DNA of 64,000 nt from the NCBI GenBank assembly GCA_013204105.1, contig JABMOM010000032.1, positions 124,001 to 188,000 of the forward strand, given 5' to 3'. The notes beneath the pieces are model-generated. The model was not told the origin of the DNA and searched no databases. It saw only the letters and a list, made by a program, of their open reading frames with translations. Of the stretch, positions 8,161 through 14,464 are shown piece after piece (positions within the stretch are counted from its first letter, which is position 1; the number at the start of each line of letters is the position of its first letter). Both the position numbers and the translations under genes were made by a program. Origin of the DNA: Flavobacteriales bacterium. Lineage in GTDB: Bacteria; Bacteroidota; Bacteroidia; Flavobacteriales_G; Salibacteraceae.

Positions 8161-8252
8161 GAAACTTGACGGAAATAATCCACCCATGACTGAGTTAACA
8201 CATTTATGGGAAAACTTTTCAATGCGTTCTGCACCCAACGTAATGCTGAGGC

Positions 8253-8260
8253 TAGATTTG
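8253..8260 (+). promoter_or_regulatory. -7 box giving a predicted leaderless mRNA (MORN-repeat gene)
   Basis: TAGATTTG matches TAnnTTTG exactly and is followed by only 5 bases before the ATG at 8266. With the usual start 5-6 bases after the box, transcription would begin at the start codon. It also decides the start: the upstream in-frame ATG at 8206 would lie outside the transcript. No clear -33 TTG is present. Confidence 0.6.
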
Positions 8261-8265
8261 AGCCC

Positions 8266-9876
8266 ATGAAGTACCATTTGATCACATGCTTGATGTTGCT
8301 TTCTTCTGTCGCTATCGCACAAGAGTTCAAAGTCTCCGATGCGAAGCCGGAACCGTTTGTCACGTTCTACGATGATGATCATAAACAGAAATACAGTGAG
8401 GGTGCCTTTCTTATTGGTAAGAAACATGGCGAGTGGACTTACTACTATACAAACGGGAATAAGCAGGAACAAAGCCTCTATAACAATGGCTTACTCAGCG
8501 GACCTGTGCTGTACTGGTACGATAACGGTCAACGAAAAGTAGAGGGCTATTTCAAGCTCATTTACCAAGATGGAATTCTCGCGCCGCTGAGGGATAGCAT
8601 TTACAAAGAGTGGTATGCCAACGGCAACATGAAAGTCAAAGGCCAGTACTATTACAACGTCCGAAATGGCATGTGGAACTGGTGGTTTGCCGAAGGCGAT
8701 GATTGGAAGGAGGTCGATTATAATCAGGGAATTGCTCGCCCACTTCAGGGAAGGAATATGGATGGTGAGAATACACTGAGCGACGGCAACGGTGTGCTTT
8801 ACGGCTATTTCGACAATGGTAGATTGAGTTCCAAGCTGAGTGTAAAAGACAACGATTTTTTTGGTTCATCGACCTACTATTATGAGAATGGAAACGTGGA
8901 GAGTGAGGGGGATGTGATTGGGGCGGATCGCGCTGGGTTGTGGAAGTTTAATTATGAAGATGGTGCCAAATGGAAGCACATAGAATACAAAGAAGGTCAG
9001 TTGGATGGCGTGATCCGAACTTGGTATCCCACCGGCGAAATCAGCGTTGAAGGAAAACATGCCAAGGGCAAAAAAAATGGTCCGTGGATGTGGTATAACA
9101 GTTCGGGTCAGGTGTACATGCGCGGAAGCTTCAAGGACGATATGCAGCACGGAACGTGGACTTATTATTTTGAAAACGGTCAAATAGAAAGTACCGGCGA
9201 TTTTGAAGAAAACCTGCGGCAAGGAGAGTGGCGCATGTTTTACAAGGATGGTTCGGATTGGAAGGTTGGCAGCTATCTGGATGACAAGAAACATGGTGAA
9301 TGGCGCACCTACTTTGAGGCGGGTCAACTCGTGCAAAAGGGGAATTATGCCCACGGAAAAGAAGAAGGACTTTGGCAAGCATGGTATCAGAATGGTCAAT
9401 TAAAGGATGAAGGCACCTACAAGGTAGGATTGATGCATGGCGATTGGAAAGGCTGGTTTGATAATGGAGAGCTCAATTACGAAGGGGTCCGAAACGAAGG
9501 TGTAAAGGAGGGACAGTGGACCTACGGCTACCCCAATGGAAAGAAACGAGAAGAGGGGTCCTACAAAGCCGGAACGATGGACGGGAAATGGTCTTATTTC
9601 TACGAAGCAGGAAATGTGGATTACGAGTGCGTCTATACTAATGGGGCCAAGGATGGAAAGTGCACGTATTACTTTCCGCACGGTTCTGTCTTGAAGAAGC
9701 AATCGTACAAAATGGATCGATTGGACGGAAAGAGCGAGATGTACAACCAAACCGGTCAGCTCATTGGTATTAGGCATTACAAGAATGGAGTGCCCCATGG
9801 TAAGGCGATCAATTATGACGACAAGGGGAAGGTGATGAACGAAATGAACTTCAAGGACGGAATTCAGGCACCTTAA
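8266..9876 (+). CDS. Exported MORN_2/YwqK-type repeat protein
   Basis: A 536-residue protein with a signal peptide (MKYHLITCLMLLSSVAIAQ) followed by about twenty copies of a ~23-residue beta-hairpin repeat with the pattern G-x-W-x-x-Y-x-x-N-G-Q-x-x-x-E-G-x-Y, i.e. MORN_2 repeats. Databases often label such proteins YwqK-family antitoxin; nothing here supports a toxin-antitoxin role. It is likely periplasmic or surface-exposed, with a repeat-solenoid binding role that is unknown. An upstream ATG at 8206 would add 20 residues and hide the signal peptide, so 8266 is chosen. It is followed by the rimP operon, separated by a hairpin. Confidence 0.85.
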   Translation: MKYHLITCLMLLSSVAIAQEFKVSDAKPEPFVTFYDDDHKQKYSEGAFLIGKKHGEWTYYYTNGNKQEQSLYNNGLLSGPVLYWYDNGQRKVEGYFKLIYQDGILAPLRDSIYKEWYANGNMKVKGQYYYNVRNGMWNWWFAEGDDWKEVDYNQGIARPLQGRNMDGENTLSDGNGVLYGYFDNGRLSSKLSVKDNDFFGSSTYYYENGNVESEGDVIGADRAGLWKFNYEDGAKWKHIEYKEGQLDGVIRTWYPTGEISVEGKHAKGKKNGPWMWYNSSGQVYMRGSFKDDMQHGTWTYYFENGQIESTGDFEENLRQGEWRMFYKDGSDWKVGSYLDDKKHGEWRTYFEAGQLVQKGNYAHGKEEGLWQAWYQNGQLKDEGTYKVGLMHGDWKGWFDNGELNYEGVRNEGVKEGQWTYGYPNGKKREEGSYKAGTMDGKWSYFYEAGNVDYECVYTNGAKDGKCTYYFPHGSVLKKQSYKMDRLDGKSEMYNQTGQLIGIRHYKNGVPHGKAINYDDKGKVMNEMNFKDGIQAP

Positions 9877-9901: not shown

Positions 9902-9909
9902 TATATTTG
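9902..9909 (+). promoter_or_regulatory. -7 box of the rimP-nusA-infB operon
   Basis: TATATTTG matches TAnnTTTG exactly. Transcription would start near 9914-9916, giving a leader of about 50 bases that contains the hairpin at 9927-9952. No good -33 TTG is visible. Confidence 0.55.
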
Positions 9910-9926
9910 CGGCGTCAAAGAAGTGG

Positions 9927-9952
9927 TGAGGGGAAGTCCCCTCATTTTTTTT
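9927..9952 (+). terminator. Intrinsic-terminator-like hairpin in front of rimP
   Basis: A perfect 7-bp stem (TGAGGGG / CCCCTCA) with the 4-base loop AAGT is followed by eight T residues. It has the form of a Rho-independent terminator. It either ends transcription of the MORN-repeat gene, which stops at 9876, or acts as an attenuator in the rimP-nusA-infB leader, because it lies downstream of the -7 box at 9902. The two roles are not exclusive. Confidence 0.75.
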
Positions 9953-9963
9953 GCAAGAATACC

Positions 9964-10410
9964 ATGATTAACGCCTCAAATATCCACGCATTGGTAGACG
10001 AGAAGATCGAAGGGACCGGCATGTTTGTCGTCGAACTTACGGTCAGTTCGTCGAACCGCATCGTGATTGAATTGGACAACTTGGAAGGAGTCACCATCGA
10101 CGATTGTGTTCAGGTGAGCCGACATGTAGAGTCCAGTCTTGATCGCGAGACGCAGGATTTTGAGTTACAGGTTTCTTCTGCGGGCATTGACAAGCCGTTG
10201 CGGGACCGTCGTCAATACGTCAAAAACGTGGGACGCGAGCTTCGGATGCAGTTGAATGACGGTGCAGAGCTGAAAGGTGAGCTCATCGAAGCCGGTGAAA
10301 AAGTGAAGTTGAAGCTTCCGGCATCGAAGAAGAAGAAACTACCAGAACGTGAGGAGTTGGTTGAGTGGGAAAACATCAAGGAAGCTAAAATCATTATTTC
10401 GTTTAAATAA
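9964..10410 (+). CDS. rimP: Ribosome maturation factor RimP
   Basis: A 148-residue RimP, which assists assembly of the 30S subunit. Conserved features are the N-terminal VDEKIEGTGMFVVELTV, the VTIDDCVQVSRHVESSLD helix, and the junction EVSSAGIDKPLR-like segment (VSSAGIDKPLRDRRQY) before the C-terminal SH3-like domain. It is the first gene of the widely conserved rimP-nusA-infB block. The ATG at 9964 is chosen; the frame stays open further upstream, but only through the terminator-like hairpin. Nothing about the protein is unusual. Confidence 0.95.
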   Translation: MINASNIHALVDEKIEGTGMFVVELTVSSSNRIVIELDNLEGVTIDDCVQVSRHVESSLDRETQDFELQVSSAGIDKPLRDRRQYVKNVGRELRMQLNDGAELKGELIEAGEKVKLKLPASKKKKLPEREELVEWENIKEAKIIISFK

Positions 10411-10421
10411 ACATTTCGGAT

Positions 10422-11657
10422 ATGAATACCGATGAATTGATCGAGTCGTTTCAGGACTTCAAGGACCTTAAAAATATTGACCGTGTTACCATGATGCACA
10501 TCTTAGAGGATGTGATTCGCGGTCTGATCATCAAGGAATATGAAGATGATTCCAGTTTCGACATCATCATCAACCCGGATAAAGGTGACCTCGAAATATG
10601 GAGAAACCGAACCATCGTTGCCGATGGCGCTGTGGAGGACCCGCTGACTGAGATTGAGTACAGTGATGCTGTCAAGATTGAGCCTGACTTTGAGATCGGG
10701 GAGGAAGCGTCTGAGGAACTGAAGATCGAGAACTTCGGTCGTCGTGCCATCCTTTCGATGCGTCAAAACCTCCAAGCGAAGATCCAAGAATTAGAGAAGG
10801 ATACCATTTATAAGAAATACAAGGATCGCGTTTGAGACATCATCACAGGAGAAGTCTACCAGATCTGGAAGCGTGAAATCCTTGTCTTGGATGATGAAGG
10901 CAATGAATTGGTGCTTCCTAAGTCGGAGCAGATTCCAACGGATTACTTTAAAAAGGGTGATACCGTCCGAGCCGTTGTGAGCAAGGTTGATATGAAAAAC
11001 ACCAGCCCGGTGATCATTTTGTCACGAACGTCGCCTGCCTTCTTAGAGCGATTGTTTGAGATGGAAGTGCCAGAGATCTTTGATGGATTGATTACCATCA
11101 AGAAGATCGTTCGTGAACCAGGAGAGCGCGCTAAGGTGGCCGTTGAGTCTTACGATGATCGGATTGATCCAGTAGGAGCATGTGTAGGCATGAAGGGTTC
11201 GCGTATCCATGGTATCGTTCGTGAATTGCGCAATGAAAACATTGATGTTATCAATTACACCTCCAACGCTCAACTCTTTATCCAGCGCTCGTTGAGCCCT
11301 GCAAAGATCACCACCATTAAGATCAACGAAGAGACGGGTCATGCCAGCGTATACCTCAAGCCAGACCAAGTATCCTTGGCCATTGGTAAAGGAGGTCATA
11401 ACATCAAATTGGCTGGAAAGCTTACAGGACACGAAATTGACGTTTACCGAGAGTCTGAAGAAGACTACGAAGACGTGGATCTAGAAGAATTCGCAGATGA
11501 GATCGACAGCTGGATCATCGACGAACTCAAGGCCATTGGTTGTGACACTGCGAAAAGTGTCCTTGAATTGACCAAAGAAGACCTTGTAAAGCGCACCGAT
11601 CTGGAAGAAGAGACCGTGAAAGAGGTTCTTCAGATCCTCCGCGCAGAATTTGAATGA
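10422..11657 (+). pseudogene. nusA: Transcription termination/antitermination factor NusA, interrupted by an in-frame TGA
   Basis: NusA binds RNA polymerase and controls pausing, termination and antitermination. Codons 1-137 encode the N-terminal polymerase-binding domain; codon 138 (10833-10835) is TGA; the same frame then continues with no length change through the S1 domain (DIITGEVYQIW), two KH domains (VGACVGMKGSRIHG, LAIGKGGHNIKLA) and a helix-hairpin-helix-like tail to 11657. In relatives the position is the glycine of KDRVG-x-I-TGEV, so a single GGA to TGA change explains it. The rest is undamaged, with no frameshift or codon decay, and TGA is an ordinary stop elsewhere in this window. 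A sequence error or a very recent nonsense mutation is most likely. The first downstream ATG (10887) would lose the start of the S1 domain. Confidence 0.85.
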
Positions 11658-11698: not shown

Positions 11699-14464
11699 AT
11701 GTCAGACGCACCGATTAGATTAAGTAAAGCAGCAAAGGAGTTTAACGTAGGGTTACCTACCGTAGTGGAATTCTTGAGTAAGAACGGCATCGTAGTAGAA
11801 GCTCGTCCAAATACCAAGATTGAACCTTCGGCATATCAGCTATTGGTGGAGGAGTTCGCCCCGGACAGAGCTAAGAAGCAGAAGTCCAATGAGCTCGCTC
11901 ATACTAAGGTAGTGAGGGAGACCATTACGCTTGATGATTCCAAGAAGACCAAGACCAACCTAGATACGGAGCAGGACGAAGTATTGATCAAGAATGTTGG
12001 CGGTATCGAAGAGCCTGAGCCTGTAGTGGAAGCTCCTGCAGTACAGGTAGAGAAGAGGGAAGTGCCAAAGGAGAAGGATGCTGGCCCAACGGTAGTCGGG
12101 AAGATCGACCTGTCAACCATCAAGTCGAACCGTCCAAAGAAGAAGGCGGAAAAGGAAGAGGAAGAAAAAGTTGCCGCTGAAAAGAAGAAGGAAGAAGAGA
12201 AGGTGGCCGCTGAGGAGGTGAAGAAGGCTGCTGAGAAGGAGCCAAAGAAGCCTGCTGTTGAGGAGGTAAAAGAAGAAGCACCTGAGCCGAAGAAATTTGA
12301 GCAAGAGGTAATGAAGGCCAAGGCCGATAAGCTGGACGGCCCAAAATTCGTTGGTAAGATTGAACTTCCTGCGGAGCGAGTCAAGAAGAAGGTCGGCGAA
12401 TCGGAAGAGGATGCCAAGAAGCGTAAGCGCAAGCGAATCGCAAAGGTGGATACTAATAAGCCAGCCAGCGGCGGCGCGCGTGACTTCAAGCGAGGCCCAG
12501 GCCCAGGTGGTCCATCTGGCCCTGGAAGAAGAGGTGCCAAGGCGGCTCCTAAACCGGAGTTGACGGAAGAAGAAATTCAGAACCAAGTGCGTGAGACTCT
12601 CGCGGCACTTAAAAGCAAGGGAAAATCTACCCGTTCAAAGTATCGACGGGAACGCCGCGATGCTGTGAGCGAAAAGATGCAAAAGGAACTCGAGCAAGCG
12701 GAGGTAGATCAGAAGGTTTTGAAGCTGACCGAATTCGTTACCGTGAGCGAACTGGCCACGATGATGAACGTATCACCAACGGAGGTGATTTCGATTTGTA
12801 TGTCCGTCGGAATGATGGTGTCCATCAACCAGCGACTCGATTCGGAGACTCTTACATTGCTCGCCGAAGAATTTGGATATACCGTAGAGTTCATCAGTTC
12901 GGAGATCCAACAATCAGTTCTTGCAGAAGACGTGGATGCACCAGAAGATCTGGTTGAACGTCCACCGATCGTAACCGTCATGGGTCACGTGGACCACGGT
13001 AAGACATCTCTCTTGGACTATGTTCGACGGGAGAATGTGATTGCCGGTGAAGCCGGAGGTATTACACAGCACATTGGTGCGTATAGCGTTGAACTCGAGG
13101 GTGGAAAGATCATTACGTTCTTAGATACACCAGGTCACGAGGCGTTTACCGCGATGCGTGCACGTGGTGCTCAGGTAACCGATATTGCCATTATTGTAAT
13201 TGCAGCGGATGATGCAGTGATGCCACAGACTGTGGAGGCCATCAATCACGCGCAGGCTGCCGGGGTGCCGATGGTCTTCGCATTCAATAAAATTGATAAA
13301 GATGGAGCCAACGCAGATAAGATCCGCGAGCAATTGGCCAATATGAATATTCTCGTTGAAGACTGGGGCGGTAAATACCAGTGCCAGGAAATCAGCGCGA
13401 AACAGGGATTGAACGTAAATGAACTCCTCGAGAAAGTATTGCTTGAATCTGAAATGCTTGAATTGAAAGCAAATCCAGACAAGAATGCGCGAGGAACGAT
13501 CATTGAGGCGACGCTCGACAAAGGACGTGGTTACACATCCACCTTGTTGGTGCAGTCCGGAACGCTTGCCATTGGGGATGTTATCCTAGCCGGTAGCTAC
13601 TTCGGTCGTGTAAAAGCCATGTTCAACGAACGTGGTGTGGCCATTGATGAGGCTGGGCCATCTCATCCGGTTAGTCTTTTGGGATTGAACGGCGCGCCTA
13701 GTGCGGGAGATAATTTTATTGTGATGGAAGACGAGAAGGAAGCGAAAAACATCGCTACTAAACGTCAGCAACTTCAGCGTGAGCAAAGTATCCGTACTCA
13801 GCGACGAAGAACATTGGAGGACATTGGGGATATCATCCAATTGGGCGATTACCACGAGGTCAATGTCATCATCAAAGGTGACGTGGATGGTTCGGTAGAA
13901 GCGCTTGCGGACTCTATGCTCAAACTTTCTACAGAAAACATTGCGATCAACGTCATCCATAAGTCAGTAGGTCAGATTACAGAATCGGATGTCTTGCTTG
14001 CAACGGCGTCCGACGCTATCATCATCGGATTCCAGGTTCGACCATCTGCTCAGGCGCGAAAGCACGCTGAAAACGAGGGCATCCAGATTCGATTGTATTC
14101 CATCATCTACGATGCTATCAATGATATGAAGGCGGCGATGGAAGGAATGCTCAAGCCGAAGATCGAAGAGCAGATCGTCTGCAACATTGAAATCCGTGAG
14201 ACCTTTAAGATCAGTAAGGTTGGTACGATTGCAGGCTGTTATGTCCTTGATGGAACGGTTACGCGTAATACGAAGGTTCGCATCATCCGCGATGGCATTG
14301 TCATCTATTCCGGAAACCTAGGCTCGCTCAAGCGATTCAAGGATGACGTGAAAGAGGTGAAAGCTGGATTCGAATGTGGACTTAACATCGATAACTTCAA
14401 CGATATCGAAGCTGGTGATATCATCGAAGGCTTTGAAGAAGTAGAAGTAGCGCGTAAACTCTAA
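11699..14464 (+). CDS. infB: Translation initiation factor IF-2
   Basis: A 921-residue IF-2, the GTPase that brings initiator tRNA to the 30S subunit. It has an N-terminal IF2_N domain ([21 protein letters not shown]), a long Glu/Lys/Ala-rich linker (about residues 60-290), a second IF2_N-like domain before residue 400, then the G domain with GHVDHGKT (G1), DTPGHEAF (G3) and NKID (G4), and the C-terminal initiator-tRNA-binding domains. The length is typical for Bacteroidota. It follows nusA by 41 bases. The biased linker creates long spurious reverse-strand frames that should be ignored. Confidence 0.97.

Follow-up and report, generated by a model that had tools for sequence, protein, structure and literature searches.

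NusA sets transcriptional pausing and termination genome-wide, and how cells fix its level therefore matters widely. The closest described system is the rimP-leader (Naville and Gautheret 2010, PMC2965389), an element of the rimP-nusA-infB leader with a G-rich 5' arm, a C-rich 3' arm and a T stretch, for which the available text of that study names NusA as the best candidate and which it presents as the most ubiquitous attenuator. According to the same text, NusA represses the operon in E. coli, in which two terminators ahead of rimP are described in the consulted part of another article (PMC6511841). In B. subtilis, NusA-stimulated leader termination governs how far transcription enters nusA, as stated in the accessible portion of the report (PMC12288461), a finding that goes back to Mondal 2016. 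In S. agalactiae, the leader yields a short RNA whose end, 31 nt past the start site, coincides with a predicted intrinsic terminator ahead of rimP, and NusA feedback is proposed in the available text (PMC4448216). For F. psychrophilum, one sentence in the available text mentions a structured 5' element upstream of rimP, conserved in Flavobacteriaceae and without an Rfam match (PMC9723704). A literature search, to which most subscription literature lay outside, found no paper on the rimP/nusA leader in Bacteroidetes/Bacteroidota, and the main texts of two B. thetaiotaomicron maps gave no match for rimP, nusA or infB. An element of this general kind, known from other bacteria, is met here in Bacteroidota.

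The window, that is, the whole stretch of 64,000 nucleotides that was analysed, holds rimP (9964..10410, ATG at 9964; Pfam RimP_N E 3.2e-9), nusA (10422..11657; Pfam NusA_N E 2.1e-30 on its first part) and infB (11699..14464; Pfam IF-2 domains), all on the + strand, and 5' of rimP a co-directional MORN_2-repeat gene (8206..9876, +, stop 9874-9876; Pfam MORN_2 E 5.9e-51). Between the MORN gene and rimP, also on the + strand, stand a -7 box, TATATTTG (9902..9909), which is the presumed rimP promoter and belongs to the TAnnTTTG type kept in class leaders; a presumably transcribed spacer (9915..9926), placed by the start site expected from the box; the terminator hairpin TGAGGGG-AAGT-CCCCTCA (9927..9944), with a 7-bp stem (9927-9933/9938-9944) and the loop AAGT; and a T8 tract (9945..9952), the presumed termination point. 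The box, the 7-bp stem, the eight T residues and the following rimP had been described in an earlier note on this DNA, and all were found where it had placed them. Another candidate promoter box, TTTTTTTG (9946-9953, +), lies inside the T tract. The window's nusA carries an in-frame TGA at 10833-10835 (codon 138). Glycine occupies this position in 128 of the 131 relatives aligned, and the stop in the window counts among the other three. As NusA is essential elsewhere, this TGA is likely an assembly or sequencing error.

A terminator scan of the window drew the hairpin as a 9-bp stem including G-U pairs (9925-9946) and put it at the head of the 18 terminator-like sites found between 5000 and 20000. 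Shuffled sequences average 14.9 such sites, so the count alone is no proof, and chance was therefore assessed through conservation. The leader (9910-9966) folds at -18.4 kcal/mol (z -2.76), and 1 of 200 shuffles was equally good. Rfam gave matches below threshold only at this leader (PrrB_RsmZ, E 0.0049, 23.1 of 44 bits; BTnc231, E 3.2); in 12 relatives, one tRNA exceeded its cut-off and all other matches were sub-threshold.

The class sample comprised 60 genomes (the window's own and those of its genus, family, order and class), in 57 of which a protein search found RimP. From these, 56 leaders were extracted, the window's own included, and the missing one (G057, locus L274) has GGGGGC-GAA-GCCCCC followed by T6 ahead of rimP. 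A GC-rich hairpin was found in 56/56 class leaders, mostly as GAGGGG..CCCCTC, by a script that favours GAGGG-like arms. An automatic terminator rule that is blind to letters, asking for a minimum of 4 G-C pairs and of 5 T in 8, was passed by 54 of the 56 leaders (L033 and L051 were missed) and by 10/560 shuffles, compared with 0/30 recA leaders (shuffles 0/300) and 2/29 dnaA leaders (shuffles 7/290). The controls were recA and dnaA only, with 30 loci fetched for each and starts placed by a rough profile; one dnaA locus, having 33 bases upstream, was dropped. The strict box TAnnTTTG stands 5' of the hairpin in 53/56 class leaders versus 139/5600 shuffles, and the hairpin loop starts 16 to 39 bases past a -7-like box in 55, L024 being the leader without a box. 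The arms are polar: 49 of the 56 leaders carry GGG on the 5' side of the stem and CCC on its 3' side. Minus-strand matches to the rule, present in 31/56 class rimP leaders, 5/70 phylum leaders and 12/30 nusA leaders (the latter two sets are described below), probably arise because the hairpin is nearly palindromic and follows A-rich sequence.

A set of named records was taken from the best 80 loci among the NusA matches listed, with rimP present at 77 and upstream sequence that could be used at 76; it covers Bacteroides heparinolyticus DSM 23917, Mucilaginibacter, Prolixibacter, Sphingobacterium and Marinilabilia. The script found the hairpin in 75/76 of these leaders, a G-rich arm in 70 and the box in 68, in a set that overlaps the 56 class leaders, at least five contigs having the same length in both. 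Several class leaders of the named set (for example L213, L228 and L254) have interrupted T tracts, in the form of TTTTATT or a G ahead of the T run; T-tract interruption is a trait reported, in the part of the article at hand, for NusG- and NusA-dependent terminators (PMC8060035).

Position and T content bear on whether the hairpin is a 5' stabiliser or a ribosome-access structure at which termination is incidental, a role that would suit the poor T tracts of class leaders L021, L033, L035 and L049. The distance from hairpin to start codon, however, ranges from 6 to 74 bases across class leaders (L046, with a misplaced start, left out), and 7-9 T lie within 9 bases past the outermost G-C pair in 49/56, which would be superfluous for a stabiliser. 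We regard such a role as highly improbable.

A structure model of the hairpin (R1) matched other sites in 60/60 genomes (E up to 10, among the matches listed), and in the window's genome other sites score better than the rimP leader. The hairpin shape is thus ordinary, since R1 matches generic terminators, and because R1 is unspecific, the exact-string pattern GAGGGG-N3-9-CCCCTC-T5 serves as the evidence of specificity. This string occurs 26 times in 24/60 genomes (reversed control pattern, 0), at 25 places because one palindrome matches both strands, and 21 of the 25 are rimP leaders; the window leader itself lies outside the pattern, with an A after CCCCTC. Among 129 distinct hairpins, the matched stems were GAGGGG/CCCCTC in 65, TAGGGG/CCCCTA in 12, CAGGGG/CCCCTG in 2, and GCGGGG/CCCCGC and GAGGCC/GGCCTC in 1 each, counts that lean towards GAGGGG because the register was chosen to fit it; alignments A1 and A3, with misplaced arms or loops, were excluded.

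Beyond the class, RimP was found in 289/296 genomes of a phylum sample. The 70 leaders taken from it, 30 best-scoring and 40 picked at one to three per family among the matches listed, form a non-random set, 10 of which belong to the window's class. The automatic rule was passed by 49/70 (shuffles 43/700), and a hairpin with a T run was recognised by eye in 20 of the 21 missed leaders, giving 69/70 by eye; the hairpins that the rule had missed were bulged, had a long loop or a weak T run, or stood at a locus whose start was misplaced. At the remaining locus, L117, the sole hairpin lies 62 bases ahead of the start, leads into TTTTCG and precedes the box-like TATCTTCG. Stems vary by lineage, including GTGGGG..CCCCAC, AGTCCCGC..GCGGGACT, TAGCCCG..CGGGCTA, TCGCCC..GGGCGA and GTGAGCGTC..GGCACTCAC, and arm polarity is G-rich-5'/C-rich-3' in 26 of the 70, inverse in 29 and neither in 13, with no hairpin found by the script in 2. 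Outside the class, then, the position of the hairpin is kept and its stem letters turn over; the order of box before hairpin was counted by rule in class leaders only. Two terminator-like hairpins stand in tandem ahead of rimP at L067, L107, L111, L118 and L082-L084.

The earlier note had offered a competing explanation, in which the hairpin does no more than end the MORN gene, rimP having its true promoter inside the T tract; it had also proposed that its own attenuator reading would fall if the hairpin were lost wherever a different gene lies upstream. The main upstream ORF, roughly called as the longest of at least 90 aa within 700 bases, is MORN-like in 32 of the 56 class leaders and co-directional, and in the window merely 25 bases separate the MORN stop from TATATTTG, both of which fit the competing explanation. 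The other class leaders, however, have another co-directional ORF (15), a divergent one (8) or none (1), and the 70 phylum leaders have 46 co-directional and 24 divergent ones, so that the hairpin is kept with every kind of upstream ORF and recurs, its letters changed, in further classes of the phylum. The refuting condition set by the note thus did not bring down the attenuator reading. As to the promoter, TAnnTTTG occurs between hairpin and ATG in 0/56 leaders (the looser TTnnTTTG in 17/56), and one nusA leader (L302, see below) has a hairpin with a T run before the box and a second hairpin after it. The MORN-terminator explanation is thus largely contradicted and, in our estimate, very improbable. 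In the window, the 25 bases that separate MORN stop and box held no + strand terminator in the scan, and for this reason the hairpin may also end MORN transcripts.

nusA lies 3' of rimP in 124/126 loci; of the two exceptions, L061 stops at a contig edge, and L117 (genome G221), the one rimP leader judged by eye to have no hairpin after a box, is followed by 964 bases without nusA, a single case. The separate nusA of G221 is preceded by a hairpin with a poor T tract. In G265 (L275), of the same family, the hairpin GACTTTGG-GCG-CCAAAGTC with a broken T tract stands between rimP and nusA, directly before nusA. Eleven genomes had no or a weak RimP match; NusA_N was found in 7 and neither domain in 4. 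One of the 7, G057, turned out to have rimP, and of the 6 genomes that remained, 5 have a hairpin with a T run ahead of nusA by rule, the sixth (L272) having a 4-bp hairpin.

In one family (f51, G166 and its relatives), RimP_N exceeded the cut-off in 1/40 genomes and NusA_N was found in 35; in the exception, G386, the RimP_N match lies on a different contig from nusA. rimP thus seems to be absent from this family, to judge by domain matches. Among its 30 nusA loci read, 26 of them new, the strict rule was passed by 26 (shuffles 2/600) and a looser rule by 27 (shuffles 27/600), with a divergent main upstream ORF in 22/30. On reading, hairpins of the GGGC..GCCC type, each followed by a T run, were recognised at L284 and L301; the upstream sequence at L285 is shorter than 60 bases; and at L302 the scored hairpin precedes the box, a 4-bp GGGC hairpin with T7 following it. 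A terminator-like hairpin is therefore met ahead of nusA also without rimP, in this family and in other genomes with no or a weak RimP match. Since the hairpin is found ahead of nusA even where no rimP accompanies it, it goes with nusA, and a link to NusA is favoured.

Taken with the leader itself, these data make it probable that the rimP-nusA-infB leader works as an attenuator made of a terminator alone, by which NusA keeps its own operon in check. We infer that RNA polymerase would start about 5-7 bases past TATATTTG (near 9915), giving a leader of about 38 bases, and that at the hairpin and T tract it would either let go of the leader or continue into the operon. Polymerase-bound NusA would increase termination at the leader hairpin, and excess NusA would thereby lead to less NusA, RimP and IF2 being made. 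Class leaders have a short spacer ahead of the hairpin, with a median of 18 bases, and in 55/56 of them it holds no exact complement of at least 3 bases to the 5' arm, so that a competing antiterminator in the spacer is unlikely. A leader peptide was considered and rejected: an ATG is present in 28/56 class leaders, yet there is no common peptide or stop position. With no sign of an antiterminator or a leader peptide, the efficiency of the terminator would be set by the polymerase and its factors. As to the attenuator itself, a stem of this strength followed by eight T residues could end transcription with no help from NusA; in B. subtilis, NusA dependence is said, from work by Mondal in 2016, to be greatest at weak terminators. 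Counted against a NusA attenuator are the stem letters conserved in the class, since a mere terminator could do without such conservation, the ordinary shape shown by R1, the poor T tract at nusA of G221 and the hairpin of only 4 bp at L272.

The same conservation of GGGG/CCCC letters within the class, across the 129 distinct hairpins, suggests a specific reader, which would suit an attenuator whose read-through is set by an effector other than NusA, be it RimP, IF2, NusG, a small RNA or growth-dependent polymerase speed. RimP interacts with rRNA, according to the available text of one study (PMC2965389), and NusG likewise stimulates intrinsic termination, according to that of another (PMC8060035). 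RimP is nevertheless unlikely as a general effector, because the family without a RimP match has the hairpin in its nusA leaders, and we consider a different effector improbable overall. Returning to NusA, a further proposal, which we put forward as speculative and rather doubtful, is that Bacteroidota keep one ancestral NusA sensor that follows nusA and not whichever gene opens the operon, and that the class stem GGGG(AC)..(GT)CCCC is held because NusA reads the G-rich 5' arm. If this were true, the arm would signal to NusA, at a terminator, through its specific RNA sequence.

Among known systems, Rfam RF01770, a gammaproteobacterial leader with a terminator, concerns the same operon by a 102-position model; at its cut-off of 47 bits it was reached in 0/60 genomes, and it had no match at the window leader. 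The F. psychrophilum element shares phylum and gene with ours and is likely identical to the present hairpin; the accessible text gives neither sequence nor mechanism (PMC9723704). For S. agalactiae, the terminated RNA was seen by RNA-seq (PMC4448216, in the part available), whereas the leader here is known from sequence; likewise, NusA dependence is reported for the B. subtilis nusA leader in the accessible portion (PMC12288461) and inferred here. The rimP-leader (PMC2965389, available text) is closest: it occupies the same operon leader and has a terminator hairpin with a T stretch, both recognised here by sequence and fold; no antiterminator is visible in it, nor here as an exact complement in the spacer; and its G-rich 5' and C-rich 3' arms recur in the 49/56 polar class leaders. 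The main text of that study names Firmicutes and Gammaproteobacteria and has no match for Bacteroidetes, Bacteroides or Flavobacter, whereas the stem here is GGGG(AC)..(GT)CCCC in the class and has other letters elsewhere, behind a TAnnTTTG box. Compared with the motif GGGc(...)gCCC given in the available text, the window's GGGG-AAGT-CCCC lacks the c and g, which are the less conserved letters; GGGGAC..GTCCCC is seen in many class stems, and the common stem of family f51, GGGCt..aGCCC, is close to the published motif. The hairpin before nusA where rimP is missing is the part not met in the literature examined, as far as its accessible text goes. Family f51 offers a natural test of whether NusA or RimP is the likelier regulator, which the available text of PMC2965389 had left open, and the survey extends the rimP-leader to the phylum, with different promoters.
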